In this document: piece by piece, positions 1,610-49,191 of the stretch | Layout of the letters: each line of letters starts with the position of its first letter | Position numbering within the stretch: position 1 is the stretch's first letter | Assembly (NCBI RefSeq): GCF_019583405.1 | Contig: NZ_SZUU01000001.1 | Location: forward strand, 744,001-808,000 | Direction: 5' to 3' | Length of the DNA stretch: 64,000 nt | Source: Bacteroides fragilis | GTDB taxonomy: Bacteria > Bacteroidota > Bacteroidia > Bacteroidales > Bacteroidaceae | Position numbers and translations under genes: made by a program | Notes under the pieces: generated by a model | What the model was told of the DNA's origin: nothing | Database searches by the model: none | The model's input: the letters and a program-made list of their open reading frames with translations, nothing else

Positions 1610-2635
1610 CTATGTACTTGGAACCGGTTCAGGAACTACCACGGGAATGGTCATTTTTCCTCCATCCCCCCACTCTTTCTCTTCGCCTTCCAGCGTAAAA
1701 GAGTCGATATCAAAATTGAGAGTGGTTCCATACGACTCTCCGGCTTGCAACTGAGTTACCGGGACGCCGGATTGATCCATGAAATTCAGGTTGCCATCCA
1801 AAACAGGAAAGCTTGCCTTTCGCGCTCCGGTCGTAAAATTTACATCCTTGGCCACATCCGCTGTCAACGTAAGCCCCGGTGTACCCAAAGAGGAAATATC
1901 GGTCAGCAAGTCGTTCGTCGCACAGGGTATCAGATAGAATACCGCAATCTGCGTATCCTCCGTACTCAATATCTGACCGGGATGATCGATAACCAAATCG
2001 GCGGAAGCCGGAGCCCCTACATAGTGTTTCACCCCCGTATCCCATTTCACCCCTCCGCACACTAAGCGTGAGGGTACTGTCAACTTAAGGTTCTTGACAT
2101 ACAGCTTACCGACCGTGTTGTCCGTACGCCTTGCCTTGAGCACGATGCGTACGGCGGCATGCGCGAACTCCAACGCCCGTCCGAAAGGTTGCTTCCTGCT
2201 GCCCGTAACTCCATTCGGAGTAACCAGCACATCGGTCAGTCCTGCTCCCGAAGACGGTAACGAATAGGTGCCGTGACCATCTGCCATAGTCATGGACGAA
2301 GGGCAAAGTCCCATCACCACCACCCGGGAGTTATCAGCCGGATAGTCCGCTTCCGTATTATAGGGTGCATCGGCGTAATCACCGATCCCCCCTGCCGGAG
2401 TGGAGATGTTATAAGGAGAGCCCAATGTCCCCGTACTGAAATCCGTCTCTTTCCAGAACAGCAGTAACGGAGTGCTTTCGCTGCCTGCCACCCCATCCGT
2501 ACGGGTGAGAGCTACCTCCATGGGTACCTCCTGTTCATACTCTCCTTCTCCGGATGCACACGAGGCAGACAACAGACACAGGCAAAGCAGCAGGCATGCC
2601 CGGCAGAATCCACTCTTTTTTTCTTCTTTATTCAT
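1610..2635 (-). CDS. Fimbrillin family lipoprotein
   Basis: 341 residues with a hydrophobic signal ending in SASC (Cys26), so a lipoprotein. After the signal come the TRTDG segment common near the mature N-terminus of fimbrillins and a beta-rich body with no enzymatic motif. The ATG at 2635 is 35 bases after the stop of the upstream 518-residue fimbrillin, consistent with co-transcription. By family and position it is probably an accessory fimbrial subunit comparable to Mfa3/Mfa4 of Porphyromonas gingivalis; in that family precursors are lipidated, exported and trimmed by a gingipain-like protease before donor-strand assembly. Its place in the fibre is inferred. The minus-strand open frames overlapping it at 1710-2496 are shadows. 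Confidence 0.75.
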   Translation of the reverse strand: MNKEEKKSGFCRACLLLCLCLLSASCASGEGEYEQEVPMEVALTRTDGVAGSESTPLLLFWKETDFSTGTLGSPYNISTPAGGIGDYADAPYNTEADYPADNSRVVVMGLCPSSMTMADGHGTYSLPSSGAGLTDVLVTPNGVTGSRKQPFGRALEFAHAAVRIVLKARRTDNTVGKLYVKNLKLTVPSRLVCGGVKWDTGVKHYVGAPASADLVIDHPGQILSTEDTQIAVFYLIPCATNDLLTDISSLGTPGLTLTADVAKDVNFTTGARKASFPVLDGNLNFMDQSGVPVTQLQAGESYGTTLNFDIDSFTLEGEEKEWGDGGKMTIPVVVPEPVPST

Positions 2636-2670: not shown

Positions 2671-4227
2671 CTACGTCGGCCTGACTATGATTGTATTACC
2701 CGAACTCGTCACCCAGTCCGCTACTTTCATCGTGGCACGCATCGGCTGCGGCAAAGCGGCCGAAGGCAGGCTGAACCGGGTAATACGCAGCAGATAATAA
2801 CGGTTGCGCAAAATGCCGGAAGCCGCACTGAAAGCAATTGTGCCGTCGGTAGCAATTGTACCGTCTATATAAGTGTAATAATAGCCGATCCCGCCTTCGT
2901 AAGCGGTAAAATCAGTACGTTTCAAGGTACCCGCACCGATGGCGGCCTTCATGCCCGCATAGCTGTAATAGTCACTCCCGTTGGTAAAGTAAGTGCCTGC
3001 CGCATGTGCTTCCGCCTCGGCAGGTGTCGTCGTTGCGGGCAAGTAAGTAGCGGCATCGGCGGGAGATGTCAGGGTTTGCGTGGTTCCGGCCCCGGTAATA
3101 ATCTGTTTGGGGACAAACTTCGCCGCTACCAGCAGATGGGTAGCCACCAGGCGGGGAATCTCCGCTTGGGTTGAACTGAGCGTTCCTGTCAGATCCAGCC
3201 CACCTTCAAGAGAGGTGGTAGAAGTGGCAGTCGTGTTCTCCGGACAATACAGTCCACCGGTATAAGCGCCGCTTGTCGAGGGGACAGTGGTCGTAGCATT
3301 GTATCGGGTGGCGTCATACGCTTCCGGAGCGCTACCTTCTGCCCAGACACTGCCCAAGGTACGGTAAGCGAATTGCTGTTCAGACACATCGGGTGCCGAC
3401 ACATAATTGCCGCCACCATCTTTTACCACATACGGGTCTACTTCATAGTTAGGATCTTTCCCATCCGAAGGCGCATTCAGATACACCTTCCGGTTCACCG
3501 TATTGAGGGCATACCGCACTTCCGACAAACGGATCCAGCCCGGATCATCCGCCGGACGAGCCGCATTGTCGGACATCCGTACATACGCCCCTCCGTCGTC
3601 CGTATAGGTATCGCACACCAGCATTACTTTAGCCACCACCCTTTCGAGCTCGACAGGCGAGGCCGTAAGATCTATATTCACATCGGTACCCGCACTGACC
3701 GTTACGGCATCGGCGGCTTTTCCGGTCATGGCAATGCCCTCCGCCTGACGGGCAAACTGTCCGATCACTTCGTCATATCCGTCTCCGGCAGCGGTATACA
3801 GTCCCAGGCCTCCCGCCTGCCCGCAAATGGCATGCACCTGACCAGGCAACAGATTGGCACCCACATAGACCTTCTTCCGTCCGGGAGCGGTCGGTATGCG
3901 GGCCTGATACACGTCCGTCGCACCACTTGTCGCGCCGTAAACCACTTCGTACTGCACATCATTCCAATCTTCGTTTCCGCTCCCGTCGACCGATACCAGA
4001 AAAACGGCGACAGAAGAGATCTTTTCCTCAACCGCTTCGCCCGCCGATACGACCACCCGGGTACTTGCTCCCGCCACCCGCACCGAGAAACGGACACACG
4101 CCGTCACCCGGTCTGTCCCTGCCGGAGTGCCCGGCATATCGGTATCGTCGGAGCATCCGCATGCCAGCAGGCAGAGCAGAAACCGAAAAAACAAGATAAA
4201 TATGCTGCCTTTACAGTTGTGCATCAT
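2671..4227 (-). CDS. Mfa1/FimA-like fimbrial subunit lipoprotein
   Basis: 518 residues. The signal ends LLACGC, with Cys23 the best lipidation site, followed by SDDTDMPG, the acidic linker also seen in the 548-residue stalk subunit of this operon. The N-terminal half (VSSVAVFLVS-like strands, KKVYVGANLL) matches the Mfa1/FimA fold. The end (NRYYLLRITRFSLPS, then VADWV near the C-terminus) resembles the exchangeable terminal strand of these pilins. Its start overlaps the 3' end of the Mfa2-like gene by 17 bases, suggesting translational coupling. It could be a second stalk protein or a larger tip-associated fimbrillin; the anchor gene lying between it and the 548-residue subunit favours the latter. 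Confidence 0.75.
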   Translation of the reverse strand: MMHNCKGSIFILFFRFLLCLLACGCSDDTDMPGTPAGTDRVTACVRFSVRVAGASTRVVVSAGEAVEEKISSVAVFLVSVDGSGNEDWNDVQYEVVYGATSGATDVYQARIPTAPGRKKVYVGANLLPGQVHAICGQAGGLGLYTAAGDGYDEVIGQFARQAEGIAMTGKAADAVTVSAGTDVNIDLTASPVELERVVAKVMLVCDTYTDDGGAYVRMSDNAARPADDPGWIRLSEVRYALNTVNRKVYLNAPSDGKDPNYEVDPYVVKDGGGNYVSAPDVSEQQFAYRTLGSVWAEGSAPEAYDATRYNATTTVPSTSGAYTGGLYCPENTTATSTTSLEGGLDLTGTLSSTQAEIPRLVATHLLVAAKFVPKQIITGAGTTQTLTSPADAATYLPATTTPAEAEAHAAGTYFTNGSDYYSYAGMKAAIGAGTLKRTDFTAYEGGIGYYYTYIDGTIATDGTIAFSAASGILRNRYYLLRITRFSLPSAALPQPMRATMKVADWVTSSGNTIIVRPT

Positions 4228-5263
4228 TCAGTCTGATAATCCATCCGTTAATGTTCAGCGCCTCCAGCCTTCCCATCGGGGTAAGGTAGAAAATCACGTT
4301 GAACTGATCTTCGTAATCAAGGTAATCCTGATCGCTGAGCTCCACACCGCTGCTCTCTTCAAACAGGGGACGCGTCATCAGCAGATAATGCGTCAGGTCG
4401 ACGTCCACTACTTTCTGTCCCGAGGTGCGGTCAGTCACCACCAGACGGGCCTCCTGCCCTGCCAGTAGGCGCAATGTATTCAAGCGGGCACGTGCCAGGC
4501 TGACTTCTCCCGTACGGGTGGCCGCCGGTTCCGTTTCGGACGCGGACTCCGTATGGTAGGCGGCATAAGTCACCCGGTTGCCCGTTATTATCTCGTTGTC
4601 GGCATTCAGGTGACCGTTATCCGCCAACAGGGTAAAGTCATAATCATCGGCATCCAGCCCCTCGCTCGAAGTGTCGTGCAGGGTGATGATGAACCGGTTG
4701 CTATCCTTCAGCATCGGCACACTGACCGATGTCAGTTCCGAAGGCTGTATCCGGCTCAGCCGGACATGCCCATACCACAGGTGTCCCAGTTCGTCATCCT
4801 GACGTCCGTCCCCGTCACGTTCCAGCCAGAGGACCAACTCGTCACGGGTCGAACTGCCCGGTGTGAGCTGCGGTATCCGGTAATGCCGGTTGTCCCCTCC
4901 CGCCCAGAACACCAGTTCGTAAGCATCTCCGTCTTTATATTCCAGTGGCAGGGTAATGATAGATCCGTTTTCAGTCAGCGATTGCCTGTTTTCAGTGTGC
5001 AGGCAGACAAACTGTCCCTGTGCGTCGAACACGTAGAGGGACAATGTGTCAATCTCGTCGGTGATGATGCCTATCCCGCTACCGGGCTGTATCTGTGCAT
5101 GCAATGCAGGCTGAAGACGAATACGAAAACCACTGGGACAGTCGCCGCGATCGTCCTTGGTCCACGAGCAGGCGGATAAGCCCGCCAACAGGCAAAACCA
5201 TAAGAACGGCAGAAGCCGACTGCCGGAATGGGATAAACAGGAGGTCTGAAAGTTATCGGACAT
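4211..5263 (-). CDS. FimB/Mfa2 family fimbrial anchor lipoprotein
   Basis: About 350 residues from the ATG at 5263. The frame is open to another ATG at 5311, but the internal start gives a normal lipoprotein signal ending LSAC (Cys32), so I prefer it. Right after the Cys come DDRGDCPSGF and, further on, LYVFDAQGQFV and YELVFWAGGDN; these are hallmarks of the FimB/Mfa2 family (DUF1812). In P. gingivalis, Mfa2 anchors the fimbria to the outer membrane and limits fibre length. Here it directly follows the stalk gene, the same mfa1-mfa2 order, but with a dispersed palindromic repeat (5295-5388) in between that may lower expression relative to the stalk. Confidence 0.85.
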   Translation of the reverse strand: MSDNFQTSCLSHSGSRLLPFLWFCLLAGLSACSWTKDDRGDCPSGFRIRLQPALHAQIQPGSGIGIITDEIDTLSLYVFDAQGQFVCLHTENRQSLTENGSIITLPLEYKDGDAYELVFWAGGDNRHYRIPQLTPGSSTRDELVLWLERDGDGRQDDELGHLWYGHVRLSRIQPSELTSVSVPMLKDSNRFIITLHDTSSEGLDADDYDFTLLADNGHLNADNEIITGNRVTYAAYHTESASETEPAATRTGEVSLARARLNTLRLLAGQEARLVVTDRTSGQKVVDVDLTHYLLMTRPLFEESSGVELSDQDYLDYEDQFNVIFYLTPMGRLEALNINGWIIRLNDAQL

Positions 5264-5294
5264 GGTTGGGAAAATTTTATGATTGAACAGGGGG

Positions 5295-5388
5295 TTCACC
5301 ACAGAGGACACAGAGTTTTAAGCTCTTGTTTATAGGGTATTGAAGAGAAAAATATGTTCTCTGTGCCCTCTGTGTACTCTGTGGTGAA
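5295..5388. repeat. CACAGAG-type palindromic intergenic repeat
   Basis: Left arm TTCACCACAGAGGACACAG and right arm built from CTCTGTGCCCTCTGTG and CTCTGTGGTGAA form a long imperfect inverted repeat around an A/T-rich centre. It sits inside the fimbrial operon, between stalk and anchor genes, where a transcript hairpin could attenuate or stabilise the message. Confidence 0.85.
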
Positions 5389-5431
5389 AAACCATCTCAA
5401 AGCAATTACTTTAAAGCGTTAAAACAGTGGG

Positions 5432-7078
5432 TTAACGTCCCAATACGGTACTATTCGCACGTACTGTCCAGGGTTTGATACTTAACTTCACATTCAGCAA
5501 TACGGTGGTCGGATCATCGGTTTCGGTATCGGTGATGATATCTTCGGTTACACCGTCTTTGCCCACACCTTGAATACCGGTGACGGTTACTTTATAGACA
5601 TTGTTGCGGACAATGCCGAACTCCATCACGTCTTCTGCCACATCGTCCGAAGGGATGTGCTTGATCCAATACGGATAATAACAAATGAACTTGCCATCGA
5701 CACTCCCTTTTTTGAAGCACTGGACGTCGTTCTTCTTCAGGTCAGTAGCGGCAGAGCTGGAAGTAGTTCCCGCCTCCAGCAATACGCCGGCTGCTTTCAG
5801 CGCTGCAATATCCTTGTAAAAGATGCCGGAATGATAGAAGATTTCAGTAATAGAGCCAATAGTAGTCTCTTCTTCCACACCACTGCCGGCGGAAGCCTTC
5901 ATCATTTTACTCGGAGTAATTTCCGCTTTAAATACGATACCGGTTGTATATCCGTTCTTCTGTTTTTCCTTCAGCATCGTGTTTTCATAGCAGTAAGCGG
6001 CGACTTTGGTTTCTGCTGCACTGGAAGAATAACCCGGCATAGCCGTATAAGTTCCCCCAAAAGAGCCGAAAGACGACAAACCGAATGCACCTGATCCTTG
6101 CAGATACCAGTCGGCATAGCTACCGGCTAAAGCAGGGGTGGCAGCAAAAGTTTTACTATACGTTTGCGGATCTACCACATACGGCAATGAAGTGCTTGAG
6201 TTACCATAATTTGCCTCAGTCAAAGGACTCGTTGCAGTGCTTTCTTTATCCACATGACGGAAATAATAGCCCTCTTTCCGTACATTGACTACATAATAGC
6301 CTTTCAGGGTAATATCCGTAATATTTCCGATAGCAGTCACTGTGGTAGAAAACGAAGTGTATTTATTAGCAGTAGCAGCAGAATTTACACTGGTTCCTCC
6401 TGTCGTCACCGTAATCTTTCCCATCATACGCTCTACCGTTGCCGCAATGGTTTGTTCCGGATCTTTAGTGATCGTCTGGGCAATATAAGGAAGAGTATTC
6501 ATATTATCACTTTTGGGAGAACGGCTCGCCATCACCAGTCCGGCCTCCGGCACAGCGGCTATCACGCCCGTAGCGTCAGCCGTTGTCTTTGCAAGGAAAT
6601 CGGCTTCGGTCAAGCTATTCTTGCTGCCGTCAGTCACTCCATTGACCGTACCGTTCACCACAATGTAAATACGATAGTCTCCCGGTGTCAAGGCTGTTTT
6701 CTTACTGGTCCATACAATCGTTTTAGCGTCGGCAGTGCTGGCTGTCATTTGTGTAAACTGGTTGATGGAAATAATCTCTTTCAACTTAGCGCTACCAAAG
6801 CTACTACCCGTTCCTCCCGGAAACAAATACAGGTTGGCGGTCTTCACTTTGTATTCATCCTCCGAACCGACTTCAGTAGTGTTATCGTCAGTATCTGCTG
6901 TCGTACCGGCCCTTGTTTCCGCCACGCCGTTCGGCACGGCAATGGTCACTGTGGTATAAGCTCTCGCTTCTTCCGGATTCTCTCCGCCCGGGATGTCCGT
7001 ATCGTCGGAACAGGCGGACCAGGTTGTCAGCAGCAAAGCAGCCAACCCCATCATACTCATGTACTTTAGTCTTTTCAT
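5432..7078 (-). CDS. Mfa1 family major fimbrial (stalk) subunit
   Basis: 548 residues. The signal ends TWSAC (Cys23), followed by SDDTDIPGG. The mature start contains VTIAVPNGVAETRAGT, and an ANLYLFPGG segment matches the N-terminal domain of Mfa1-type pilins. The C-terminus has GIVRNNVYKVTVTGI and a final strand with LSIKPWTV, the pattern used for donor-strand exchange in the Mfa1/FimA superfamily. It is the first structural subunit in the operon, after DUF3575 and DUF3868 proteins, matching common Bacteroides fimbrial loci. It is expected to be exported as a lipoprotein, trimmed on the surface and polymerised into the shaft. Expression should depend on the invertible promoter at 9503-9815 unless an internal promoter exists. 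Confidence 0.85.
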   Translation of the reverse strand: MKRLKYMSMMGLAALLLTTWSACSDDTDIPGGENPEEARAYTTVTIAVPNGVAETRAGTTADTDDNTTEVGSEDEYKVKTANLYLFPGGTGSSFGSAKLKEIISINQFTQMTASTADAKTIVWTSKKTALTPGDYRIYIVVNGTVNGVTDGSKNSLTEADFLAKTTADATGVIAAVPEAGLVMASRSPKSDNMNTLPYIAQTITKDPEQTIAATVERMMGKITVTTGGTSVNSAATANKYTSFSTTVTAIGNITDITLKGYYVVNVRKEGYYFRHVDKESTATSPLTEANYGNSSTSLPYVVDPQTYSKTFAATPALAGSYADWYLQGSGAFGLSSFGSFGGTYTAMPGYSSSAAETKVAAYCYENTMLKEKQKNGYTTGIVFKAEITPSKMMKASAGSGVEEETTIGSITEIFYHSGIFYKDIAALKAAGVLLEAGTTSSSAATDLKKNDVQCFKKGSVDGKFICYYPYWIKHIPSDDVAEDVMEFGIVRNNVYKVTVTGIQGVGKDGVTEDIITDTETDDPTTVLLNVKLSIKPWTVRANSTVLGR

Positions 7079-7102
7079 TTCTTTTTATATTATGTGATAC
7101 AC

Positions 7103-8515
7103 TTATTGCGTTATACCGGTTGTCGCGGCCCGTTGTTCCGCATTCATCTTTTTAAGGTTTTCTTCCGCCTCCCGGTTTCCGGCTTTCGCCGCTCTGTGCA
7201 GCCATATCCCGGCCTCTTTGTCGTCTCCGCACAACAGATGGCATACTCCCCGTACGTTCCACGAACGTTCGTCCGCCTCTACTGTTTTCAGCAGCCGGAA
7301 TGCTTCTTCATAATTCCGCACCCGAATGGCAGCTATCGCACGGTTCACCGTATCCGCCACACTGTCAGGACGGTTGGCATACTCCACACGGATGTAGCAG
7401 GCATCGCGCAACTGCGGATAGAGCACATCCAGCACCGAACGATACGGACGCCCTCCCGCCAGAGCTTTCAGCCTATCGTTCCGTTCTTCCTCCGGATGGC
7501 TGCGGAGAATGGCAAGCACCTCCTCTTTATACGTCATGTCGCTTTCATTTACCAATTCGGCCAGTCTGCCCCAGTCTACTCCCCCGGCATTCAGTTCAAA
7601 CAACGATACAGACAGGTTCATACGGACCGAGAGAGCATGTCGCAAAGCCTCGGCACGTTTCGCCGACAACTTCCGGTTCAGCTCCGTCGCTCCTTCGGGC
7701 GAAGCATATCCGGTGATCGAGATACCTTGCAGGAATGCGCAACTGTCCGCACGCAGCAATCCGATGGCTTCCGTTATCCGGCGCAGGTTTCCGGCATTGG
7801 CCGAGTATAGTGTATCCACCACTGCCGACGCCGCACGGAAACGAATACCGATGCCGCTTTCACGCAGGGGACGGCTGCCCGCCTCACACAAGAACGGATA
7901 GTCAGCCGCATGTTCCGCTACCGACCGGCTCACCTGCGGAGCAACCTCACAAACCGAGGGACGATAGGGCAAAGCCACCGGAAAAGCACCGGAGGAAACG
8001 ACGCTCCCCACCGTCTGTACCCGGCAGCAACCCTCCCGGTCGATGTCGAGCCGCAAGTTCAAACCACTCTCCATCCACGGAGCATAGCGCAGCGTATCGG
8101 TATACAAGAAGGTATCTCCATTGCGGGCAGTCAGCCGATGGTCCGCCTCACCGGCACTGCCTTTCAAGAGACGTTCCTGCCTCTCCCTGCGTGCCATGAT
8201 GCGCCCCGTCACCACAAACGGGCTGAGCAATACACTATCCGAAGCGTTGCCCAGGCAAGGGGTAATCACCCAGCGGTGACGGGCACGCACTGCACGGGGG
8301 GCTATCTTTATGGCAAACGAGACATATACCTGTCCACCCGCACGCTGCATTCGGACAGCAGTAAGGGCCACTCCTCCGGACGGCCCCGCCGCACGGGCAA
8401 ACGGCATGCCGGAACACAGGGCAAAGGCCGCCAGGCAACAGGCTGACGCCAAAGCCTTCTGAAAGCATATTCTTAAACGGGTCGATCGTATCTTCTCTTT
8501 CATAAAACTTTTCAT
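7103..8515 (-). CDS. DUF3868 protein with OmpA-like and TPR-like parts
   Basis: 470 residues. The signal peptide ends near ARAA (about residue 43), with no lipobox. Residues about 47-220 contain an immunoglobulin-like beta region of the DUF3868 type seen in fimbrial loci. Residues about 230-300 carry an OmpA-like peptidoglycan-binding segment (SITGYASPEGA followed by NRKLSAKRAEAL). The last ~75 residues form TPR/Sel1-like helices (YEEAFRLLKTVEADE, then HRAAKAGNREAEENLKK). It overlaps the DUF3575 gene by four bases (ATGA), so the two are probably translated together. A structural or periplasmic assembly role linking the fimbrial base to the cell wall is an inference from domain content and position. 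Confidence 0.8.
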   Translation of the reverse strand: MKSFMKEKIRSTRLRICFQKALASACCLAAFALCSGMPFARAAGPSGGVALTAVRMQRAGGQVYVSFAIKIAPRAVRARHRWVITPCLGNASDSVLLSPFVVTGRIMARRERQERLLKGSAGEADHRLTARNGDTFLYTDTLRYAPWMESGLNLRLDIDREGCCRVQTVGSVVSSGAFPVALPYRPSVCEVAPQVSRSVAEHAADYPFLCEAGSRPLRESGIGIRFRAASAVVDTLYSANAGNLRRITEAIGLLRADSCAFLQGISITGYASPEGATELNRKLSAKRAEALRHALSVRMNLSVSLFELNAGGVDWGRLAELVNESDMTYKEEVLAILRSHPEEERNDRLKALAGGRPYRSVLDVLYPQLRDACYIRVEYANRPDSVADTVNRAIAAIRVRNYEEAFRLLKTVEADERSWNVRGVCHLLCGDDKEAGIWLHRAAKAGNREAEENLKKMNAEQRAATTGITQ

Positions 8516-9069
8516 TTTAGCATATAAATCAAGCTGATGCCCACACGGGTCGGTGCCAGGAAGTTTTTCTTATCCGCTCCCCGATATTCGCCACAGGCAG
8601 GGCAATTAAAACGTTTGTACTCGGCATGTACCCATCCCGCGCCTACGGTAGCCTCCAGATTCCAGCGTTTGCCCAGCACCCACGAGTAGCCGTATGAAAG
8701 CCCTGCCATCACCGCCCACCCCTCGTAGCGGGAAGAGGCCGAATGGGAAACAAAAGGCAGACGCACCCGGCTCAGGTTGTACTCTCCCCCTCCGGCATGC
8801 ACGCCCAGAAAATGCCCGTAGAACGATTGGCAAAGCCAATAGCGCGCCTCCCCCTGTGCCATCCAGAATTTCCACTTCCGGTTGTTCTCAAAGCTCCACG
8901 GACAGGCGCTTCCCGAAACATCGAGTGTCCATCGGGAGGCCAACGCCCACTCGGCGGCAAGCGAAGGAGCGGTCGTGACATCGTACAGTAGGTTGGTTTT
9001 CACCGCTACTTGCTGTGCCAGCGCAGAGCCCGAAACGAGCAAAAGCAATATGAATAGTTGTTTTTTCAT
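8512..9069 (-). CDS. DUF3575 protein, outer-membrane barrel-like
   Basis: 185 residues, with a cleavable signal (MKKQLFILLLL, cut near ALAQ). The body alternates polar and apolar residues with many aromatics (VAVKTNLLYDVTTAPS, then RWTLDVSGSACPWSFENN), typical of DUF3575 proteins predicted as small outer-membrane barrels, and ends SLIYMLK. DUF3575 and DUF3868 genes regularly precede mfa1-like genes in Bacteroides, so it may be part of the fimbrial outer-membrane base. It lies 35 bases after the first gene of the operon. Confidence 0.8.
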   Translation of the reverse strand: MKKQLFILLLLVSGSALAQQVAVKTNLLYDVTTAPSLAAEWALASRWTLDVSGSACPWSFENNRKWKFWMAQGEARYWLCQSFYGHFLGVHAGGGEYNLSRVRLPFVSHSASSRYEGWAVMAGLSYGYSWVLGKRWNLEATVGAGWVHAEYKRFNCPACGEYRGADKKNFLAPTRVGISLIYMLK

Positions 9070-9104
9070 TCTGTTAGTTTATCTGAAACAAACCGGCAAT
9101 CCGT

Positions 9105-9479
9105 TCATAAATCGGTCAAAGGTATCTCCGACAGATAGACGCGGGTCATCTGGTTGATGATCCCTAACTTATGGGCGGCACGATGATAGCGTGCGTACAT
9201 TTTCTCACAATCCGATTGATTACAATTCAGATATTGGTTCGTGGCTACCATTACGTCAAGCAGGGAAATTCGGAAAAGAGGACGGGTCAGCTCATAGATT
9301 TCCGGAGTGACATCACCGGCATGATCCGCCTTGACACGTATCAGCCCTGCGGATTCCAATTGCCCCAGAAGTTCATCAAGAGGCTTACAACTACATTCTA
9401 ATTCCTGGAAGTTTACTGTTTCCTGAAGGGAAATATGACGCAAGACAGATATGGCTGTCAAAGTTAACGGCGTAAGCAT
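9105..9479 (-). CDS. Small putative winged-helix (Rrf2-like) protein, first gene of fimbrial operon
   Basis: 124 residues. The N-terminal ~55 residues (LTLTAISVLRHISLQETVNFQEL, then LDELLGQLESAGLIRV) have the helix-helix-wing spacing of a winged-helix DNA-binding domain, and RISLLDVMVATNQYLNCN recalls the dimerisation helix of Rrf2 regulators. There is no clear three-cysteine Fe-S motif of IscR type; the nearby cysteines (NCNQSDCEK) are only suggestive. It is the first gene downstream of the invertible segment, its ATG 24 bases from the left inverted repeat, so it would be switched together with the fimbriae. I am confident it is a gene, much less so about the Rrf2 link. Confidence 0.6.
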   Translation of the reverse strand: MLTPLTLTAISVLRHISLQETVNFQELECSCKPLDELLGQLESAGLIRVKADHAGDVTPEIYELTRPLFRISLLDVMVATNQYLNCNQSDCEKMYARYHRAAHKLGIINQMTRVYLSEIPLTDL

Positions 9480-9502
9480 AAGCTATTTTGTTTTGTGATC
9501 GT

Positions 9503-9527
9503 CCGTTACTTTGTAGGTAACGGCAAT
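9503..9527. repeat. Left 25-bp inverted repeat of invertible promoter segment
   Basis: Perfect inverted copy of 9791-9815. It contains an internal dyad GTTAC-N7-GTAAC (9505-9521). From memory, this layout resembles recombination sites of tyrosine-recombinase-controlled invertible promoters in Bacteroides fragilis. Confidence 0.95.
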
Positions 9528-9746
9528 TAACATAAAATAGATTCGGATAGCGTTCCTGACAGAACACTGAGATTTAAATAATAAAAAACATCTGATGATG
9601 GCAATAGAATAATCATCCGCGTTAAATAACAGTAAACGTGGCCAACCCCTCTTATAGTTTTTTTAGGAGAAAATAGGGAAAACTAATGCAAAGCATGCAT
9701 CTTTTTTAAAATTAATTGCCTTTTTTATAAAAAACTTGTCTTTTTA

Positions 9747-9778
9747 TTTGTTTGTGTGAAAAATAATATCCAATTTTG
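9747..9778 (+). promoter_or_regulatory. Promoter carried on the invertible segment
   Basis: The -33 element TTTG (9747-9750), a 20-base spacer and the -7 element CAATTTTG (9771-9778) match the Bacteroides consensus TTTG-N19-21-TAnnTTTG with one mismatch. The box lies 12 bases inside the right inverted repeat. As it stands it points toward 9815 and beyond, not at the fimbrial genes. Confidence 0.7.
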
Positions 9779-9790
9779 CAGCAATAATTC

Positions 9791-9815
9791 ATTGCCGTTA
9801 CCTACAAAGTAACGG
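9791..9815. repeat. Right 25-bp inverted repeat of invertible promoter segment
   Basis: Perfect reverse complement of 9503-9527, with the same GTTAC-N7-GTAAC core. It ends 49 bases before the stop codon of the tyrosine recombinase. Confidence 0.95.
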
Positions 9816-9864
9816 TCTATACACTTCTCTGATTACAAGCATAATACACTCTATTTTTCGTTTT

Positions 9865-10812
9865 TCAAACCGCATTCAGCACATACCGGATTATCTTCCT
9901 GTTTGTCCGATCTACTTCCCTATCCCCAAAAGGCTTCAGGTAAGTTTCCGTCACCTTCACCGAGGAGTGTCCCAACGCACGGCTGATAACTCCTACGGGA
10001 GTCTCCTGATGAAAAGCGACCGTAGCCCACGTATGGCGGGCGGTATATGAACTGAGCCTGCCTCCCAGTTTCAACTCCACCGAAACCCGTTCCAACTGCC
10101 GGTTCAGGTTACGCAGGGCACATTGATATTCCTGATAAGGAGTGGGATTTTTCTTTGTATGCCGCTTTCGGGTACGGGGTTGCCCCAGGATAGGCAGCAG
10201 ATAGCTCGGATGGCAGTTCTCAGCCATCCTCCTGTTGATAATTTCCATCGCCTCATGCGGTACGGTGATAATCACCTCCTGCCCCGTCTTGTGGCGGCAG
10301 TAGGTCAGCACTCCTTTATCGAGATTATTCCTGCGCAAGTGAGCCAGATCGACAAACGGGATCCCTCGGAGCATAAACATCAGCACAAACCAGTCGACGG
10401 CTTCCCCTGAAGCGTCTCCGTCCGGATGTCCTGCCATCCGGATCATCCGCCCCACTGTCCCCGGACTGACAGCACGTTTCACGTCGGAGCGCGTACCGGT
10501 GTATACCTTATCGAAAAGCCCGGTCACATATCCCGGGCGGCCTTTCATCCCTCTGTTGTAGCCCGCACGCAAGGCACGCATGTAAGTCGATACCGTGTTC
10601 CAACTCAACCGCTTTCCCAGCAGCCAATGTTCATACTTGTCCAGAAACACCGGACTCACCTCTTCGAATCCGATCTCCTCTTTTCCTGCACTCTCCCTAA
10701 GTGTACGCAGCATATTATGGTAGATACGCCGGGCCGGTTCACGCCCCTCTTCTTTGAGCCTTTCAATCTCCGAAATCATAAATACTGTTAATGTTTCATT
10801 CATCTTATTCAT
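9865..10812 (-). CDS. Tyrosine site-specific recombinase (probable promoter invertase)
   Basis: 315 residues. Residues about 1-110 form the SAM-like core-binding domain of Bacteroides integrases; the rest is the catalytic domain. Visible catalytic residues are Arg149 (FMLRGIPFVDLAHL), a Lys near 175 (HKTGQEV), Arg259 in YTARHTWATV with Tyr replacing the first His of the HxxR motif, His282 (LGHSS) and the nucleophile Tyr291 (ETYLKPF). The Tyr-for-His change is common in Bacteroidetes members. Being 49 bases from an inverted repeat, with no other element boundary in sight, it most likely catalyses inversion of 9503-9815, although related invertases can also act at distant sites. No phage or conjugation genes adjoin it, so an integrase role is less likely. 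Confidence 0.85.
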   Translation of the reverse strand: MNKMNETLTVFMISEIERLKEEGREPARRIYHNMLRTLRESAGKEEIGFEEVSPVFLDKYEHWLLGKRLSWNTVSTYMRALRAGYNRGMKGRPGYVTGLFDKVYTGTRSDVKRAVSPGTVGRMIRMAGHPDGDASGEAVDWFVLMFMLRGIPFVDLAHLRRNNLDKGVLTYCRHKTGQEVIITVPHEAMEIINRRMAENCHPSYLLPILGQPRTRKRHTKKNPTPYQEYQCALRNLNRQLERVSVELKLGGRLSSYTARHTWATVAFHQETPVGVISRALGHSSVKVTETYLKPFGDREVDRTNRKIIRYVLNAV

Positions 10813-11468: not shown

Positions 11469-12664
11469 TTATCCTCCTATCACCCACTCCCCAATATTCC
11501 GTTCTTCCTTCTCGAAGGCTACACCCACCTTCACTACTTTCCGCCCGTCCGCCTGATAGGGCAGCAGATATCCCTTTTCATCAATCTGCCTCAAAGCGGC
11601 CCCGGCGCTGTCGTTCAGCTTGAACTCAAACACGTAGATGTAGTCCGGTGTCTTCACCACCGCATCGGCACGCCCCCGGGCACTCCGGACCTCCGTCTCC
11701 GTAAACTGCCCCATAAGCTGGAAGACGAGGTAGAACACCGTCTGATAATGCCGCTCCGTGCGGTCGCAAACCAGTAATTGCCATACGAACGCTTCTGCAA
11801 GGCACTCAACACGCTGAAGGGATTATACATGGAGGTGAATTCCTCGTCTTTGGTGAACCGGTATCCGTCATATTGGCGAGTCAGCCGGTCCATCACCTGC
11901 CGGCAGGTCGCATTACTTTTCACTGCCAGGGCTTCCAATTCGGGAGAGAAGGTAGCTTCTATCTCCGCACGGGTCATGCCGCAGAGGGTGTTATAGTCGA
12001 GGTCGAAACTGATATCGTTCAGTTGGTTCAGATTACTGAAAATGCCCATTTGCGCGAACTTGGTCACTCCGGTGATGAAGACGAACTGCAACCAAGGGTC
12101 GGCATCTTTGAGCACAGTATAGAAAGCGGTCAGCGTCTCCCTGAAATCGTGTTGCAACTCCGGATTGTCGAACGAACGCAGCAAGGGTTTGTCATATTCG
12201 TCGATAAGCACCACCACGCGGTGCCCCGTCTGTTCGCAGGCGCGCCGGATGACGGTCATGAAACGTCCGGAGTGCGTAATGCCTTCTCCTCCCGTCCGGT
12301 ATAACTCTTCCCACTGCCGCAACTGCCGCTCAAGTATATCGACCAGCCCCTCACGACTGTCATACTTCTCCGCATTGAGGCTGAGATGCAGCACGGGATA
12401 TTGCAGCCACTCTTTTTCCAATTTCTCGATAGCCAATCCGCGGAAGAGTTCCTTCTTACCTTGAAAGTACGCCTCGAAAGAAGAAAGCAACAGGCTCTTG
12501 CCAAAGCGGCGGGGACGGTTCAGGAAACAGGGATTGCCCGCTTGAGCCAGTCGGTAAATCAATGCAGTCTTATCTACATAAAGGAAATTTTCGGAGCGCA
12601 GTTTCTCAAAACTCTGTATCCCTATCGGGAGTTTTCTAAGCGGGGCATTGATCGGTGTATCCAT
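11469..12664 (-). pseudogene. AAA-ATPase/PD-(D/E)XK nuclease-like gene with internal deletion and frameshift
   Basis: From the ATG at 12664 the first ~300 residues are a normal AAA-ATPase-like N-terminal part: YVDKTALIYRLAQAG, a Walker A-like RPRRFGKSLLLSS and a Walker B-like VVVLIDEYDKPLL. The frame then runs YGNYWFATARSG and terminates in unrelated sequence. In another frame, from about 11775 to 11469, the missing C-terminal DUF1703/PD-(D/E)XK part appears: TERHYQTVFYLVFQLMGQF, GRADAVV and YVFEFKL, with the D and ExK nuclease residues. Family members are around 500-580 residues (from memory), so roughly 100-150 middle residues are gone and the frames no longer join. The lesion lies near 11775-11785. 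Such genes are multicopy and often decayed in Bacteroides; their function is unknown. Confidence 0.8.
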
Positions 12665-18748: not shown

Positions 18749-18753
18749 TTTGA

Positions 18754-18825
18754 GCGGAAAACGAGACTCGAACTCGCGACCCTAACCTTGGCAAGGTTAT
18801 GCTCTACCAACTGAGCTATTTCCGC
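18754..18825 (-). tRNA. tRNA-Gly (GCC), copy 3
   Basis: The 72-nt cloverleaf read on the minus strand starts GCGGAAATAGCTCAG, has anticodon loop CTTGCCAAG (GCC) and ends with GAGTTCGAGTCTCG plus the matching acceptor strand. It is identical to the copies at 18977 and 19300. CCA is not encoded. Confidence 0.95.
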
Positions 18826-18832
18826 AATGTAG

Positions 18833-18914
18833 TGCCCAGAACAGGACTCGAACCTGCATGCCTCTCGACACACGCACCTGAAACGTGCGCGTCTACCAAT
18901 TCCGCCACCTGGGC
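18833..18914 (-). tRNA. tRNA-Leu (CAG), copy 2
   Basis: Class II tRNA of 82 nt: acceptor GCCCAGG, D-loop GGCGGAATTGGTAGAC, anticodon loop TTCAGGT (CAG), long variable arm and T arm GGTTCGAGTCC. Identical to the copy at 19192. Confidence 0.95.
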
Positions 18915-18976
18915 ATTGACTAATCAGGAATCTGCTGTTTAAATGGAGAGGAACAGATAACCGACGTTCTTGTTGA

Positions 18977-19048
18977 GCGGAAAACGAGACTCGAACTCGC
19001 GACCCTAACCTTGGCAAGGTTATGCTCTACCAACTGAGCTATTTCCGC
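18977..19048 (-). tRNA. tRNA-Gly (GCC), copy 2
   Basis: Identical 72-nt cloverleaf with anticodon GCC, between the two leucine tRNA regions. Confidence 0.95.
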
Positions 19049-19070
19049 AAAACAACTTTAATAAAGAATG

Positions 19071-19154
19071 TGAAGAGAAGGAGACTCGAACTCCCACGAC
19101 AGTAATGTCACTACCCCCTCAAAGTAGCGCGTCTACCAATTCCGCCACCTCTCC
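19071..19154 (-). tRNA. tRNA-Leu (GAG)
   Basis: 84-nt class II tRNA: acceptor GGAGAGG pairs with TCTCTTC (with two G-U pairs), anticodon loop TTGAGGG (GAG), long variable arm, T arm GAGTTCGAGTCTC. Confidence 0.93.
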
Positions 19155-19191
19155 AATCTCAATTAAAGCTTTGAACTATTCTCACCTTTTG

Positions 19192-19273
19192 TGCCCAGAA
19201 CAGGACTCGAACCTGCATGCCTCTCGACACACGCACCTGAAACGTGCGCGTCTACCAATTCCGCCACCTGGGC
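19192..19273 (-). tRNA. tRNA-Leu (CAG), copy 1
   Basis: Identical to the copy at 18833, including the variable arm, with different flanking DNA. Confidence 0.95.
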
Positions 19274-19299
19274 AAAAGGTTTCCAACATTTCAAAGAGA

Positions 19300-19371
19300 G
19301 CGGAAAACGAGACTCGAACTCGCGACCCTAACCTTGGCAAGGTTATGCTCTACCAACTGAGCTATTTCCGC
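19300..19371 (-). tRNA. tRNA-Gly (GCC), copy 1
   Basis: First tRNA of the cluster in transcription order; identical in sequence to the other two glycine copies. Confidence 0.95.
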
Positions 19372-44728: not shown

Positions 44729-46042
44729 TTATCTTTTCCGAGGCAAGACCCAATGCAAAACCAGATATCCCAATATACCTGCTATTACCGTACCGGACAA
44801 AACACCGAGTTTGGCCTGGTTCAATAATACAGGATGGGCGGAACCGAACGAAAGATTGGCAATGAAAAGCGATACCGTAAAGCCTATTCCACCCAGTAAT
44901 GCCACTCCGGATATATTCTTCCAGTTCATCCCCAAAGGCATCGGAGTAAGACCGCTTTTGACAGCCAGCCAGGTAAAAGAATAAATCCCCAGAAACTTGC
45001 CTGCCAATAGCCCCAGAGCAACCGCATAGGTAACTCCGCCAATGACCTCGCCTTCACCACTGAACATAACACCGGCATTGACAAAAGCGAATAATGGAAG
45101 AACAAGGTAATTCACCGCACCATGCAAGTTATCCTCAAGCGACTGAAGCGGACTGATGACTCTGTCGGAAGCCGACTCAACCTCCTTCAGCTTAGCTATC
45201 TGCTGGTTAGTCAATACAATATTGTTTGCTCCCATTTCGGGGAATGTACTGATAATACGCCGGATACGCTCAATATAAGTACCAACATTCAACTGAGGTT
45301 TGGCGGGAATAACAAAAGCCAGAATGACACCGGAAATCGTACTATGGATACCTGATTGCAGGAAAAGATACCAGATAACCACACCGACAACTAAAAAGAA
45401 AATCTTATTAGTGGCTCCCTTCTTACCTATAAAATATAACAGTACGTAAAGTAACGCCGCCCATAACAAATACTCATAAGCCACATGTGAACTGTAAAAG
45501 ATAGCAATCACCAAAATGCCGCCTATATCATCGACTACCGCAAAAGCTGTAAGGAAGATTTTCAAACTTAGCGGCACACGCTTGCCCAACAGACTGAGTA
45601 CTCCCAAAGAAAAGGCAATATCGGTTGCCATAGGGATAGCCAGTCCTTGCCCGCCTTCAGTGCCCGGAGCACAAACCATGGAATAGATGACAACAGGCAC
45701 TACCATTCCGCCACATGCGGCAATGAATGGCAGTGCAGCTTTACGGAACGAGGAAAGCTCGCCTACCAGTAACTCTCGCTTAATCTCCAGTCCGACCATC
45801 AAGAAGAAAATCGTCATCAGTCCGTCATTAATGAACTCAATCATCGTCAGATTGTGTCCCGCATGCGAAAGTAAATTAAAGCCTCCGATACGAAAATGAA
45901 GTTCATGCGACAAAAACTCCTGATACACCGATGCTGCCGGAGAGTTAGCGATTACCGCAGCGGCAATCGCTGTGACAAACAATAGAATACTCGCCGTAAT
46001 ATTCATCGACGAGAAATCCTTCATCGAACGTAAAACTGTCAT
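44729..46042 (-). CDS. nhaA: Na+/H+ antiporter NhaA
   Basis: 437 residues, about eleven membrane segments. MATDIAFSLGVLSLLGKRVP and FAVVDDIGGILVIAIFY carry the two adjacent Asp residues that bind Na+/H+. The beta-hairpin-like N-terminus and ISGVALLGGIGFTVSLFIANL are also NhaA features. It exports Na+ in exchange for protons across the inner membrane. It is 44 bases downstream of another antiporter gene in the same orientation, so both probably form one transcript. Confidence 0.93.
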   Translation of the reverse strand: MTVLRSMKDFSSMNITASILLFVTAIAAAVIANSPAASVYQEFLSHELHFRIGGFNLLSHAGHNLTMIEFINDGLMTIFFLMVGLEIKRELLVGELSSFRKAALPFIAACGGMVVPVVIYSMVCAPGTEGGQGLAIPMATDIAFSLGVLSLLGKRVPLSLKIFLTAFAVVDDIGGILVIAIFYSSHVAYEYLLWAALLYVLLYFIGKKGATNKIFFLVVGVVIWYLFLQSGIHSTISGVILAFVIPAKPQLNVGTYIERIRRIISTFPEMGANNIVLTNQQIAKLKEVESASDRVISPLQSLEDNLHGAVNYLVLPLFAFVNAGVMFSGEGEVIGGVTYAVALGLLAGKFLGIYSFTWLAVKSGLTPMPLGMNWKNISGVALLGGIGFTVSLFIANLSFGSAHPVLLNQAKLGVLSGTVIAGILGYLVLHWVLPRKR

Positions 46043-46086
46043 AATAGGTATATATAATATTAGATTTAAGCAATTCTATGACACGG

Positions 46087-47265
46087 CTAAGTTGTATAGC
46101 TTCGCAATGCCAACTTCTTCACCCATAGTACAAAGATACCGGTCAAAATCAAATTCAATACAATGGTCAGCACTGAAATAACCAATGCAGGACCACCCAA
46201 GTTGTATCCGAGGGCAATAAAGATGACTCCGGCTCCTACTTCACCACGGGTAAACATACCGATAGAAAGCGCCAAGCGTTCGCTGAACTTCCTCTCCCGG
46301 TAAAAGAACACAGGAAACAGCTTACCGATATTTGAAAGCAGTGAAACAATCAATACGTGAAGTGCTATCATTCCCCACGACATCATTTCCTGCGAACCTG
46401 TCACCGAATGGGTTCCGGCATGTGTCTCGGCAAAGTTCACCCCAATGAAATGCGGCATGCTCATACCTACCAAGAACATAAACAGGAACGAAACCCCTGT
46501 TGAAACTTTATGCTCGACAGGAGTATCTATTTCTTTGTGTTTCATGATCATACCCAGCACAAAAGCCGGCAACAACACCTCGATGTGAATACTCCCCTCT
46601 TCGCCATAGAGCTGCTTACTAAAATAGTAAACGGCTTGGGTAGCAACAAACACAAGCACCGAATAGCCCATTATCGCTTTCCAGTCCTGACGCCAGTTAT
46701 ACCTTCCCAACTGTTTCCAACCCAATGAAAGCAATAAGAAGACAATAAAGACGACCACGATCAGCTGCCAGCGCAAACCAATCATCATTATCTGCAGGGG
46801 AATCATTAACAAAATGGTATCGAGGTCATCAAAAATTGCCAGGACCTGAATCTTTTTATAAATCCAACTTGATTTAAGTCCGATAGCGGCGAGCATCGTG
46901 AAAAGAATACCGGCCGATGTAGGAGCAGCGAAACGGCTTAACAGCAGATTCTCTTTCCAAGCCTCCCAACTGTTCCAGAATTCTGGCGGCAAAAGCACAA
47001 ATACATAATAGATAGCAATCAGGAACCAAGGCATGGCGGCAGTAGCCATCGCAATGAAGTAGTCTCCGGCATAACTTCGCCAACGGGTCTTATCAACTTC
47101 AAACTCACGCCCTACGTTAATCATAATAAAACTCAGGCAGATGTAAAGAAGAATGTTAGATACAATTTTTACGGTAGCATATCCTTCACCTGCCAATAAC
47201 GGCAAGTATTGTGATAGCAAAAGGCCAATAATCAAAAAGGCCGAAAAAGACAGAACTTTTCTCAT
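46087..47265 (-). CDS. Cation:proton antiporter (CPA2/Kef-like)
   Basis: 392 residues, about 11-12 hydrophobic segments (SAFLIIGLLLSQYLPLLAGE, ILLYICLSFIMINVGREFE and so on), RFAAPTSAGILFTMLAAIGL, IFDDLDTILLMIPLQ and FTRGEVGAGVIFIALGYNLG near the end, in the style of the Na+/H+ exchanger family. There is no TrkA-N cytoplasmic domain. Substrate unclear (Na+ or K+). It precedes nhaA, so the pair may divide pH ranges or ions. Confidence 0.8.
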   Translation of the reverse strand: MRKVLSFSAFLIIGLLLSQYLPLLAGEGYATVKIVSNILLYICLSFIMINVGREFEVDKTRWRSYAGDYFIAMATAAMPWFLIAIYYVFVLLPPEFWNSWEAWKENLLLSRFAAPTSAGILFTMLAAIGLKSSWIYKKIQVLAIFDDLDTILLMIPLQIMMIGLRWQLIVVVFIVFLLLSLGWKQLGRYNWRQDWKAIMGYSVLVFVATQAVYYFSKQLYGEEGSIHIEVLLPAFVLGMIMKHKEIDTPVEHKVSTGVSFLFMFLVGMSMPHFIGVNFAETHAGTHSVTGSQEMMSWGMIALHVLIVSLLSNIGKLFPVFFYRERKFSERLALSIGMFTRGEVGAGVIFIALGYNLGGPALVISVLTIVLNLILTGIFVLWVKKLALRSYTT

Positions 47266-47348
47266 TTTTATTGTTTATCGTTGTTTTAAAGGCAATTGCC
47301 AGGGAAAGCTCTGCGGACAGATGACAATTGCCTGGTATATTAGAAACT

Positions 47349-47400
47349 GGCTGCAACAAAATTTGTTCAGAAAGATTCCTGTTTTTTATTACGTTGCAGC
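47349..47400. repeat. Inverted repeat after lepA
   Basis: GGCTGCAAC (47349-47357) and GTTGCAGCC (47392-47400) are perfect 9-bp arms around a 34-base loop, nine bases past the lepA stop (minus strand). The long loop makes terminator function uncertain. Confidence 0.5.
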
Positions 47401-47409
47401 CTTTATTTC

Positions 47410-49191
47410 CTAATCCAGTTTAAGCACGGCAAGGAATGCCTTCTGCGGCACTTCCACATTACCGATCTGCTTCATACGTTTTTTTCCTTTTTTCTGCTTC
47501 TCAAGCAATTTACGTTTACGGCTGATATCACCTCCGTAACATTTCGCCGTAACATCTTTACGCACAGCCTTGATCGTCTCACGTGCTATGATTTTGGCAC
47601 CGATGGCAGCTTGGATGGCAATCTCAAACTGCTGTCTCGGAATCAGTTCTTTCAATTTTTCACACATCCGGCGTCCCATATCGTAGGCATTATCGAAATG
47701 AGTCAAGGTGGAAAGCGCGTCAACCGATTCGCCATTCAACAGAATATCCAGTTTCACCAACTTAGACGGACGGAAACCATCCGGATGATAATCAAACGAA
47801 GCATAACCTTTCGAGATACTCTTCAATCTATCATAGAAGTCGATCACAATCTCGCCCAAAGGCATATTGTAAAACAGCTCGACGCGGTTTCCCGAGATAT
47901 ATTCCTGCTTCAACAGTTCTCCCCGCTTACCAAGACAAAGCGTCATGATAGGTCCGATATAATCGGTCGTTGTAATAATAGAAGCTTTGATATAAGGCTC
48001 TTCTATATGGTCGATCATAGTCGGATCGGGCATACCGCCGGGATTATGAACTTCCGTCATATTGCCTTGCTTATCGTAGATATGATAAGATACGTTAGGA
48101 ACCGTAGTAATGACATTCATATCGAACTCACGATCCAGACGCTCCTGTACTATTTCCATGTGAAGCAACCCCAGGAAACCACAACGGAAACCGAAGCCTA
48201 AGGCCAAAGATGATTCCGGTTGGAATGTCAGTGAGGCATCATTCAGCTGCAACTTCTCAAGTGAAGCTCGCAGATCTTCAAATTCTTCGGCTTCGATAGG
48301 ATAAACTCCGGCAAACACCATCGGTTTCACCTCTTCGAATCCCGCAATCGCTTTATCGCAAGGGCGGGCTACGTGAGTGATCGTATCTCCCACTTTCACC
48401 TCTTTCGAAGTCTTAATTCCCGAAATAATATAGCCTACATCTCCCGTCCGAAGTTCCTTGCGTGGAACCATTTCCATTTTCAACACTCCGATTTCGTCTG
48501 CAACATACTCTTTTCCGGTATTGAAGAACTTCACTTTGTCCCCCGCACGGATGACTCCGTTCGTTATCTTAAAATAAGCGATGATTCCACGGAATGAGTT
48601 GAATACGGAGTCGAATATCAAAGCTTGCAACGGCGCACTTTCATCACCTTGAGGATGAGGTATACGCTCGATGACCGCTGCCAGTATCTCTTCCACACCC
48701 ATACCGGTCTTACCGGACGCACGGATAATTTCATCCCGCTTACATCCCAGCAGCTCTACGATCTCGTCTTCCACCTCTTCGGGCATGGCACTTGCCATGT
48801 CGCACTTGTTAATGATCGGAATGATTTCAAGATCGTGCTCAATAGCCATATAAAGATTTGAGATGGTCTGTGCCTGGACCCCTTGTGATGCATCTACAAT
48901 AAGCAACGCACCTTCACAGGCAGCTATCGAGCGGGACACTTCATACGAAAAGTCAACATGCCCCGGAGTATCAATCAGGTTCAAAATATACTTTTCCCCC
49001 CTGTATGTATACTCCATCTGTATGGCGTGACTTTTAATTGTAATCCCCCTCTCCTTCTCCAGGTCCATATCATCAAGCATCTGCCCTTCTGTCACTTGAA
49101 TGGTATTAGTGAACTCCAACAAGCGGTCCGCTAATGTTGATTTACCATGGTCGATATGAGCTATGATGCAAAAATTTCTGATTTTATCCAT
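47410..49191 (-). CDS. lepA: Elongation factor 4 (LepA)
   Basis: 593 residues. G domain with [24 protein letters not shown] and [11 protein letters not shown]-like domains; and the LepA-specific C-terminus with [20 protein letters not shown]. It is a ribosome-binding GTPase that acts in translation under ionic stress or during initiation. A -7 box TATATTTG (plus-strand 49224-49231) precedes it. Adjacent ion antiporters make the neighbourhood consistent with ionic-stress response, though that may be chance. Confidence 0.97.

Follow-up and report, generated by a model that had tools for sequence, protein, structure and literature searches.

A probable promoter-inversion switch of a fimbrial operon in Bacteroides fragilis, seen in the OFF orientation

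Does the short segment between two inverted repeats in front of a fimbrial operon of Bacteroides fragilis act as an invertible promoter, and in which state is it seen? The question was raised by a sequence-only reading of a 64,000-nucleotide stretch of DNA (the window, by which we mean the whole stretch analysed), whose features are collected in Table 1. That reading had described two perfect 25-bp inverted repeats with GTTAC-N7-GTAAC around 263 bp. This description was borne out: the arms are exact reverse complements, perfect over 25 bp, and can be extended to 33 nt at 91% identity. The core occurs twice in the window, both times in the repeats of the switch, which is beyond chance (mean expectation of 0.02 from shuffles). 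We take this paired core to be the mark of the published Bacteroides class of invertible promoters served by tyrosine recombinases. An Rfam search of positions 5200-9900 gave no match up to E 0.5. Viral contigs searched with the right switch junction gave no match either; three matched one repeat half, and the one inspected (L193) was an apparently unrelated long repetitive ORF.

Table 1. Features of the locus and of the same-core switches elsewhere in the host genome (window positions unless a contig or locus is named)
Feature	Position	Strand	Remarks
Left inverted repeat, inferred recombination site	9503-9527	+	25 bp; core GTTACTTTGTAGGTAAC at 9505-9521
Right inverted repeat	9791-9815	-	exact reverse complement of left; core at 9797-9813
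Predicted invertible segment	9528-9790		263 bp; co-oriented with G120 ortholog
Bacteroides-type promoter, TTTG-N20-CAATTTTG	9747-9778	+	TTTG at 9747-9750, CAATTTTG at 9771-9778; position conserved in related switches
Tyrosine recombinase, presumed invertase	9865-10812	-	315 aa; gene end toward switch
Gene 1, Rrf2-like protein, probable winged helix	9105-9479	-	124 aa; first in operon
Gene 2, DUF3575 protein	8512-9069	-	185 aa; family match
Gene 3	7103-8515	-	470 aa; weak OmpA-like match, below Pfam cut-off
Gene 4, Mfa1-family fimbria major subunit	5432-7078	-	548 aa; family match
Gene 5, Mfa2-type anchor	4211-5311	-	366 aa; family match
Gene 6, second Mfa1-family subunit	2671-4227	-	518 aa; family match
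Gene 7	1610-2635	-	341 aa; no family found
Gene 8, Mfa_like_1 fimbrillin	1-1498, crosses left window edge	-	700 aa; family match
Gene 9, Mfa_like_2	beyond window; genes 9 and 10 in L047:6320-8413		358 aa; family match
Gene 10	beyond window; genes 9 and 10 in L047:6320-8413		293 aa
C3 switch (L044)	C3:99359-99668, cores 99359/99652		OFF; drives second Rrf2-like/DUF3575 operon
C11 switch (L045)	C11:174285-174607, cores 174285/174591		OFF; drives 826-aa lipoprotein-like gene without Pfam family
C12 switch (L046)	C12:65653-65942, cores 65653/65926		OFF; drives Mfa2-type gene

A motif scan of the segment confirmed that it holds one consensus-like promoter pointing away from the fimbrial genes. The promoter is of the Bacteroides type, is directed outward at one end of the segment, and its -7 box begins with C, not T. 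In the window it reads rightward, leaving the operon behind and entering the recombinase gene in antisense; judged by promoter direction, this orientation is correctly called OFF. No operon-facing promoter was found within the segment under the promoter rules applied, and no terminator-like site lies between the OFF promoter and the end of the recombinase gene in the window. The match is ordinary by itself, at least one being found in 19.6% of 2000 dinucleotide shuffles, and its weight therefore comes from comparison: it is positioned as in related switches, the end of the -7 box lying 15-19 nt inside the repeat core in 73/73 OFF switches of a first set of 76. In the inverted segment the predicted -7 box would lie at 9540-9547. 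Because 61 nt would then separate the box from the start codon of the first gene (9479), the earlier estimate that inversion would bring the promoter to about 50 bases before that codon is reasonable if taken as the transcript start.

The genes to the left had been read as a fimbrial operon, and family matches uphold this: Mfa1-family (E-values of 3.3e-94 and 1e-75), Mfa2 (5.4e-56), DUF3575 (1.3e-67) and Mfa_like. With both stalk and anchor subunits of Mfa families, the operon is probably of the Type V (Mfa/Fim-type) group. The count of at least eight governed genes now stands at ten, all on the minus strand without a gap of more than 135 bp, running from 9479 down to contig position 741319, which is about 2.7 kb left of the window edge. 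A PDB sequence search with Mfa1 returned nothing at E 0.001. A palindromic repeat (CACCACAGA...) lies between operon genes at window 5290-5410 and at L047:7230-7340; it has a strong predicted RNA fold (z -4.4), is without an Rfam match, and accounts for most of 49 matches in genome G163 and 20 in genome G120.

The first gene of the operon scores 23 bits against Pfam Rrf2, below the cut-off of 30. Of its homologues, 21 of 29 aligned members (L073 was left out) reach E 0.1 or better against Rrf2, and a profile of the 29 picks up 6hsd, an Rrf2-family regulator, at E 0.0013. Iron-sulphur Rrf2 members need three cysteines; no conserved cysteine trio was seen when the 29 aligned members were read by eye. 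A structure predicted from the one sequence was discarded (mean pLDDT of 40.8). The protein has 55 matches in 21/119 genomes. Thirty of these loci, window included, were fetched, and 24 carry a repeat pair upstream of the Rrf2-like gene; 22 of these switches are OFF, two are uncalled and none is ON. As for the six loci lacking the pair, L057 is cut by a contig end, L072 has neither repeat pair nor preceding DUF3575 gene, and in L063, L075, L077 and L081 the Rrf2-like gene comes after a DUF3575 gene instead of repeats. Among the 24, the Rrf2-led locus L076 has upstream repeats of the ACGTWCGT type and no recombinase match, that is, a similar first gene with another type of switch. Fimbrial switches often have the Rrf2-like gene in first place. 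The recurrence of this predicted Rrf2-like protein beside such switches is a new detail, and its place may recall that of UpxY, the first-gene regulator of capsule operons.

A recombinase gene had been said to start 49 bp past the right repeat. The tyrosine recombinase and the distance both hold, but the codon found there is a stop, not a start: the gene is on the minus strand, and its stop codon therefore faces the repeat. The reading frame is intact and matches Phage_integrase at E 4.2e-10. K175, Y256, R259, H260, H282 and Y291 are invariant in the 72/72 aligned switch recombinases, and K175, R259, H282 and Y291 are presumably catalytic. The position of R149 varies among the 72 (R in 44, C in 25, S in 2). 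Nothing was found at E 0.001 in a PDB sequence search with the window recombinase. Such a gene stands beside the switch in 127/128 fetched loci, its end toward the switch in 75/75 of the first set and 123/127 of the full set; the four loci lacking a clear direction show matches on both strands and short frames. Its stop lies 4-56 nt before the repeat core in 71/72 measured intact loci, and overlaps the core in the other. Since the gene ends toward the switch, the OFF promoter reads into the gene end from the opposite strand.

The orientation of same-core switches was then compared widely. Two cores 250-280 nt apart occur in 30/158 genomes of the genus, at 121 places, and the same search of the genus with the reversed pattern gave zero. 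All 121 places were examined (71, 46 from 14 further genomes, three of the host genome and one of G120). The C11 switch, whose cores are more widely spaced, was added, as were seven places contributed by a family-wide search that found its pattern in 10/399 genomes (two of the places are in the genus; the other five come from three genomes in two further genera), which made 129 switches including the window. The outward -7 box, taken with respect to the recombinase side, decided the state: 116 were OFF, 10 ON and three uncalled (L213, no recombinase in view; L236, a tie; L245, no promoter match). In the first set of 76, 73 were OFF and three ON. The ON fraction is thus 10/126 called (95% interval of 4-14%), to be read with the caveat that related genomes contribute non-independent loci and that an assembly shows whichever state is commoner. 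Eight of the ten ON segments have OFF homologs to which they align in inverted orientation; the set contains no homolog of L257 or L258. The calls have a second support besides the promoter rule: state and alignment strand agree in 2423/2423 homologous pairs (2125 of the same state on the plus strand, 298 of different state on the minus strand). Clear inversions were seen between L135 and L161 (97% identity), L241 and L237 (97%), L118 and L140 (96%) and L230 and L174 (92%), and the pair L222/L221, 95% identical and inverted, lies within one genome, G184.

Some calls and assignments within this survey had to be revised or qualified. L066 appeared ON through TTTCTTTG under a first relaxed rule; alignment and a second rule gave OFF. 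On the 26-switch set the relaxed rule left six besides L066 uncalled. L070 was uncalled by rule, yet is co-oriented with OFF homologs, and L073 was uncalled. Downstream genes were taken as the longest ORF with a start close to the switch, a choice that in Rrf2-led loci selected the DUF3575 gene; the 75 ORFs included 18 NusG (as in UpxY antiterminators), 13 DUF4988, 8 DUF3575 and 4 Mfa2. By these sequence alignments, the class with the GTTAC-N7-GTAAC core demonstrably inverts. The comparison supports the promoter-inversion geometry proposed for the window locus, same-core switches occurring in both orientations, and very probably the window locus is a phase-variation switch of the fimbrial operon, seen OFF.

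Scanning the host genome (G000; 5.02 Mb, 40 contigs) for the core gave four repeat pairs, three of them besides the window, and each of the three has its own recombinase of 313-314 aa beside it. The C12 switch was at one point taken as ON because of a misleading promoter match further inside the segment; judged from the promoter at the conserved position, it is OFF. The repeat arms of the window and C3 switches (window 9503-9815, L044:7356-7673) have 23 identical bases in common, CCGTTACTTTGTAGGTAACGGCA, and their recombinases are only about 38% identical. These two switches lie on different contigs, and inter-locus recombination would be possible.

An ortholog of the locus was found in G120, with 87% DNA identity over 6.1 kb and the same orientation; the segment interior (9528-9790) is 84% identical and co-oriented. 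A comparison of orientation in related assemblies had been proposed as a check. Both states are indeed seen in the switch class, but at the locus itself the window and G120, with one genome per species, have the same orientation, and no accessible assembly is ON there. In B. fragilis Q1F2 (G163) the locus has been lost, about 12.9 kb (contig 741088-754004) missing in one piece: the recombinase match stops after residue 269 and is followed directly by sequence past the last operon gene, with two shared bases at the join. This single-piece loss indicates that the operon and switch are dispensable and were lost along with the end of the recombinase gene. DNA beside the switch shows 97-99% identity with Q1F2 in the long pieces, and with G120 about 87%; window 44729-49191 is 96% identical to G120 and 92% to G163. 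At window 11469-12664 an AAA-ATPase-like gene (336 aa) and a separate PDDEXK_9 ORF look like one split gene, and in Q1F2 a single 525-aa ORF aligns to this region. Six tRNA genes are clustered on the minus strand at window 18753-19371; these genes are probably duplicated, because three of them tie on one score and two on another.

In the mechanism that we favor, the neighbouring tyrosine recombinase would pair the 25-bp repeats, recombine within GTTAC-N7-GTAAC and invert the 263 bp. In the OFF state the only promoter would fire right, into the end of the recombinase gene; in the ON state it would fire left, and the message would start about 50-60 nt before the Rrf2-like gene and drive the ten fimbrial genes. 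From sequence comparison we infer inversion at the window locus, the neighbouring recombinase as its enzyme and a message start at the promoter; OFF cells would presumably lack fimbriae.

The enzyme might, however, be another one. A working switch inverted mainly by a recombinase encoded elsewhere, for instance that of the C3 switch, would fit the 23 bases shared by the two sets of arms, and there are precedents: a Phocaeicola vulgatus switch inverts despite a defective neighbouring recombinase (PMC13114119), and one B. fragilis enzyme serves two distant sites (PMC4747536). The C3 enzyme is nonetheless a distant relative, and the adjacency described above, with the same gene direction in all intact cases and the neighbour within 56 nt of the repeat core in 72 measured loci, argues for the local enzyme; a distant one is unlikely, though it keeps a modest chance.

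The prevalence of OFF raises another possibility. For comparison we took 20 switches with ACGTWCGT repeats, a motif that we take to be the Mpi sites, from G000, from G120 and, at four places, from G163; they are a minor share of those listed. Their state was called by eye, the larger first gene marking the operon side, and 16/20 were called; L288, L292, L295 and L302 dropped out, having long genes on both sides, and L285, L291, L298 and L300 were kept despite a shorter ORF on the other side. Thirteen were OFF and three ON (L289, L296, L299), which does not differ significantly from 116/126 (Fisher p = 0.17). Inverted orthologs were found among them as well (L286/L299, L289/L303, L288/L302). 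An OFF bias peculiar to the class with a local recombinase was therefore rejected: the proportion in the control being similar, OFF dominance is not shown to be special to that layout. Published cases point mostly the same way. The BT1927 switch is ON in about 1 in 1,000 cells in rich medium (PMC12548429), resistance genes were predominantly ON in 4/96 cases (PMC8748976), and all three genome sequences of B. fragilis had the LC promoter OFF (PMC3090145); the PS promoter of P. vulgatus, almost only ON in broth, goes the other way (PMC13114119). A broken neighbouring recombinase as the cause of ON, an idea prompted by L118 (ON, short frame) and by the P. vulgatus case (PMC13114119), was rejected at 1/10 ON versus 5/116 OFF (p = 0.40); in this count L245 has a short frame without a state, and L243, which is OFF and truncated by the end of its contig, was not classed as broken.

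The OFF promoter could nevertheless lower recombinase by antisense transcription, which would stop in the ON state, so that ON cells would soon revert. The constant placing of the recombinase end just before the core, so that the OFF promoter reads in antisense, the lack of a terminator-like site on the way in the window and the 116/126 OFF calls are all consistent with such feedback. E. coli fimE-fimS has the same layout, with fimE expression dependent on orientation. The control switches weaken the argument, being mostly OFF too although Mpi, their presumed serine enzyme, serves seven capsule promoters from a distance (PMC4747536). Furthermore, broken recombinases are not enriched among ON switches, and a cost of expression could by itself give an OFF bias. 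We consider the feedback quite unlikely. That the segment is a locked relic which no longer inverts, its fimbriae silent or driven by read-through from the recombinase gene, would agree with the shared orientation of the window and G120, with the absence of ON among the 22 called Rrf2-led switches and with the co-orientation of every homologous pair among the Rrf2-led fimbrial switches (for this subset alone the data would thus also fit segments that never flip), but drift would erode both the perfect repeats and the intact recombinase frame with its conserved residues, sister switches of the same core invert, and 0/22 against 10/122 is not significant (Fisher p = 0.36), which leaves this reading very improbable.

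The promoter-inversion switch with a local recombinase can be set beside known systems. The E. coli fim switch has two recombinases, other fimbriae and another promoter type. It is similar to the window switch in that an invertible promoter (fimS, an element of 314 bp), tyrosine recombinases (FimB/FimE) and a fimbrial operon go together (PMC9993118). Two B. fragilis systems also belong here. Tsr19 (BF2766) is a tyrosine recombinase that inverts the IVp-I and IVp-II promoters (PMC4747536), and Weinacht 2004 described a phase-variable locus with an ORF matching a fimbrial protein (via the review PMC12632263). Like the window locus, these have a nearby tyrosine recombinase gene, inverted repeats, surface-structure genes and a promoter with the TAnnTTTG -7 consensus, and IVp-I is predominantly OFF in the wild type; the Tsr19 system differs in its operon, in its recombinase and in that Tsr19 works two distant sites (PMC4747536). 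BT1927 of B. thetaiotaomicron likewise has a promoter between inverted repeats and a strong OFF bias, but drives an S-layer protein instead of fimbriae (PMC12548429). The Mpi capsule promoters of B. fragilis share the inversion of a surface-locus promoter and the species group, whereas Mpi is a serine recombinase, of another enzyme family (PMC4747536). In the hCom2 survey, inverton groups 112, 122 and 137 also lie before fimbrillin genes, and group 137 is in addition enriched for a site-specific integrase (PMC11892184). In that survey, as here, invertases lie in the non-regulatable direction, from which its authors concluded that the inverton promoter probably does not regulate them; its section 7 holds no discussion of antisense, and an antisense effect would escape this reasoning (PMC11892184).

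The switch itself is of a known, widespread kind. What the analysis contributes is the corrected direction of the recombinase, the full operon, the Q1F2 deletion, the family of the first gene, and a survey of orientations together with a control. The comparative set provides a counted baseline (10 ON of 126 called) and a layout constant across the genus, which makes it testable whether OFF dominance comes from the switch circuit or from selection, and what role the Rrf2-like gene plays. Conceivably, though we give it little credence, the switch senses its own state: antisense transcription across the recombinase gene would stabilise OFF, and the ON state would express an Rrf2-like regulator that tunes the operon or the inversion. 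No mention of antisense was found in the listed Bacteroides inversion papers of one open-access collection. If true, such a self-sensing circuit would be like that of E. coli fimE-fimS, independently evolved and common to more than 100 Bacteroides surface switches. What a gut bacterium adheres to is decided by its fimbriae, and the late discovery of such fimbriae could be due to a switch that assemblies nearly always show OFF.
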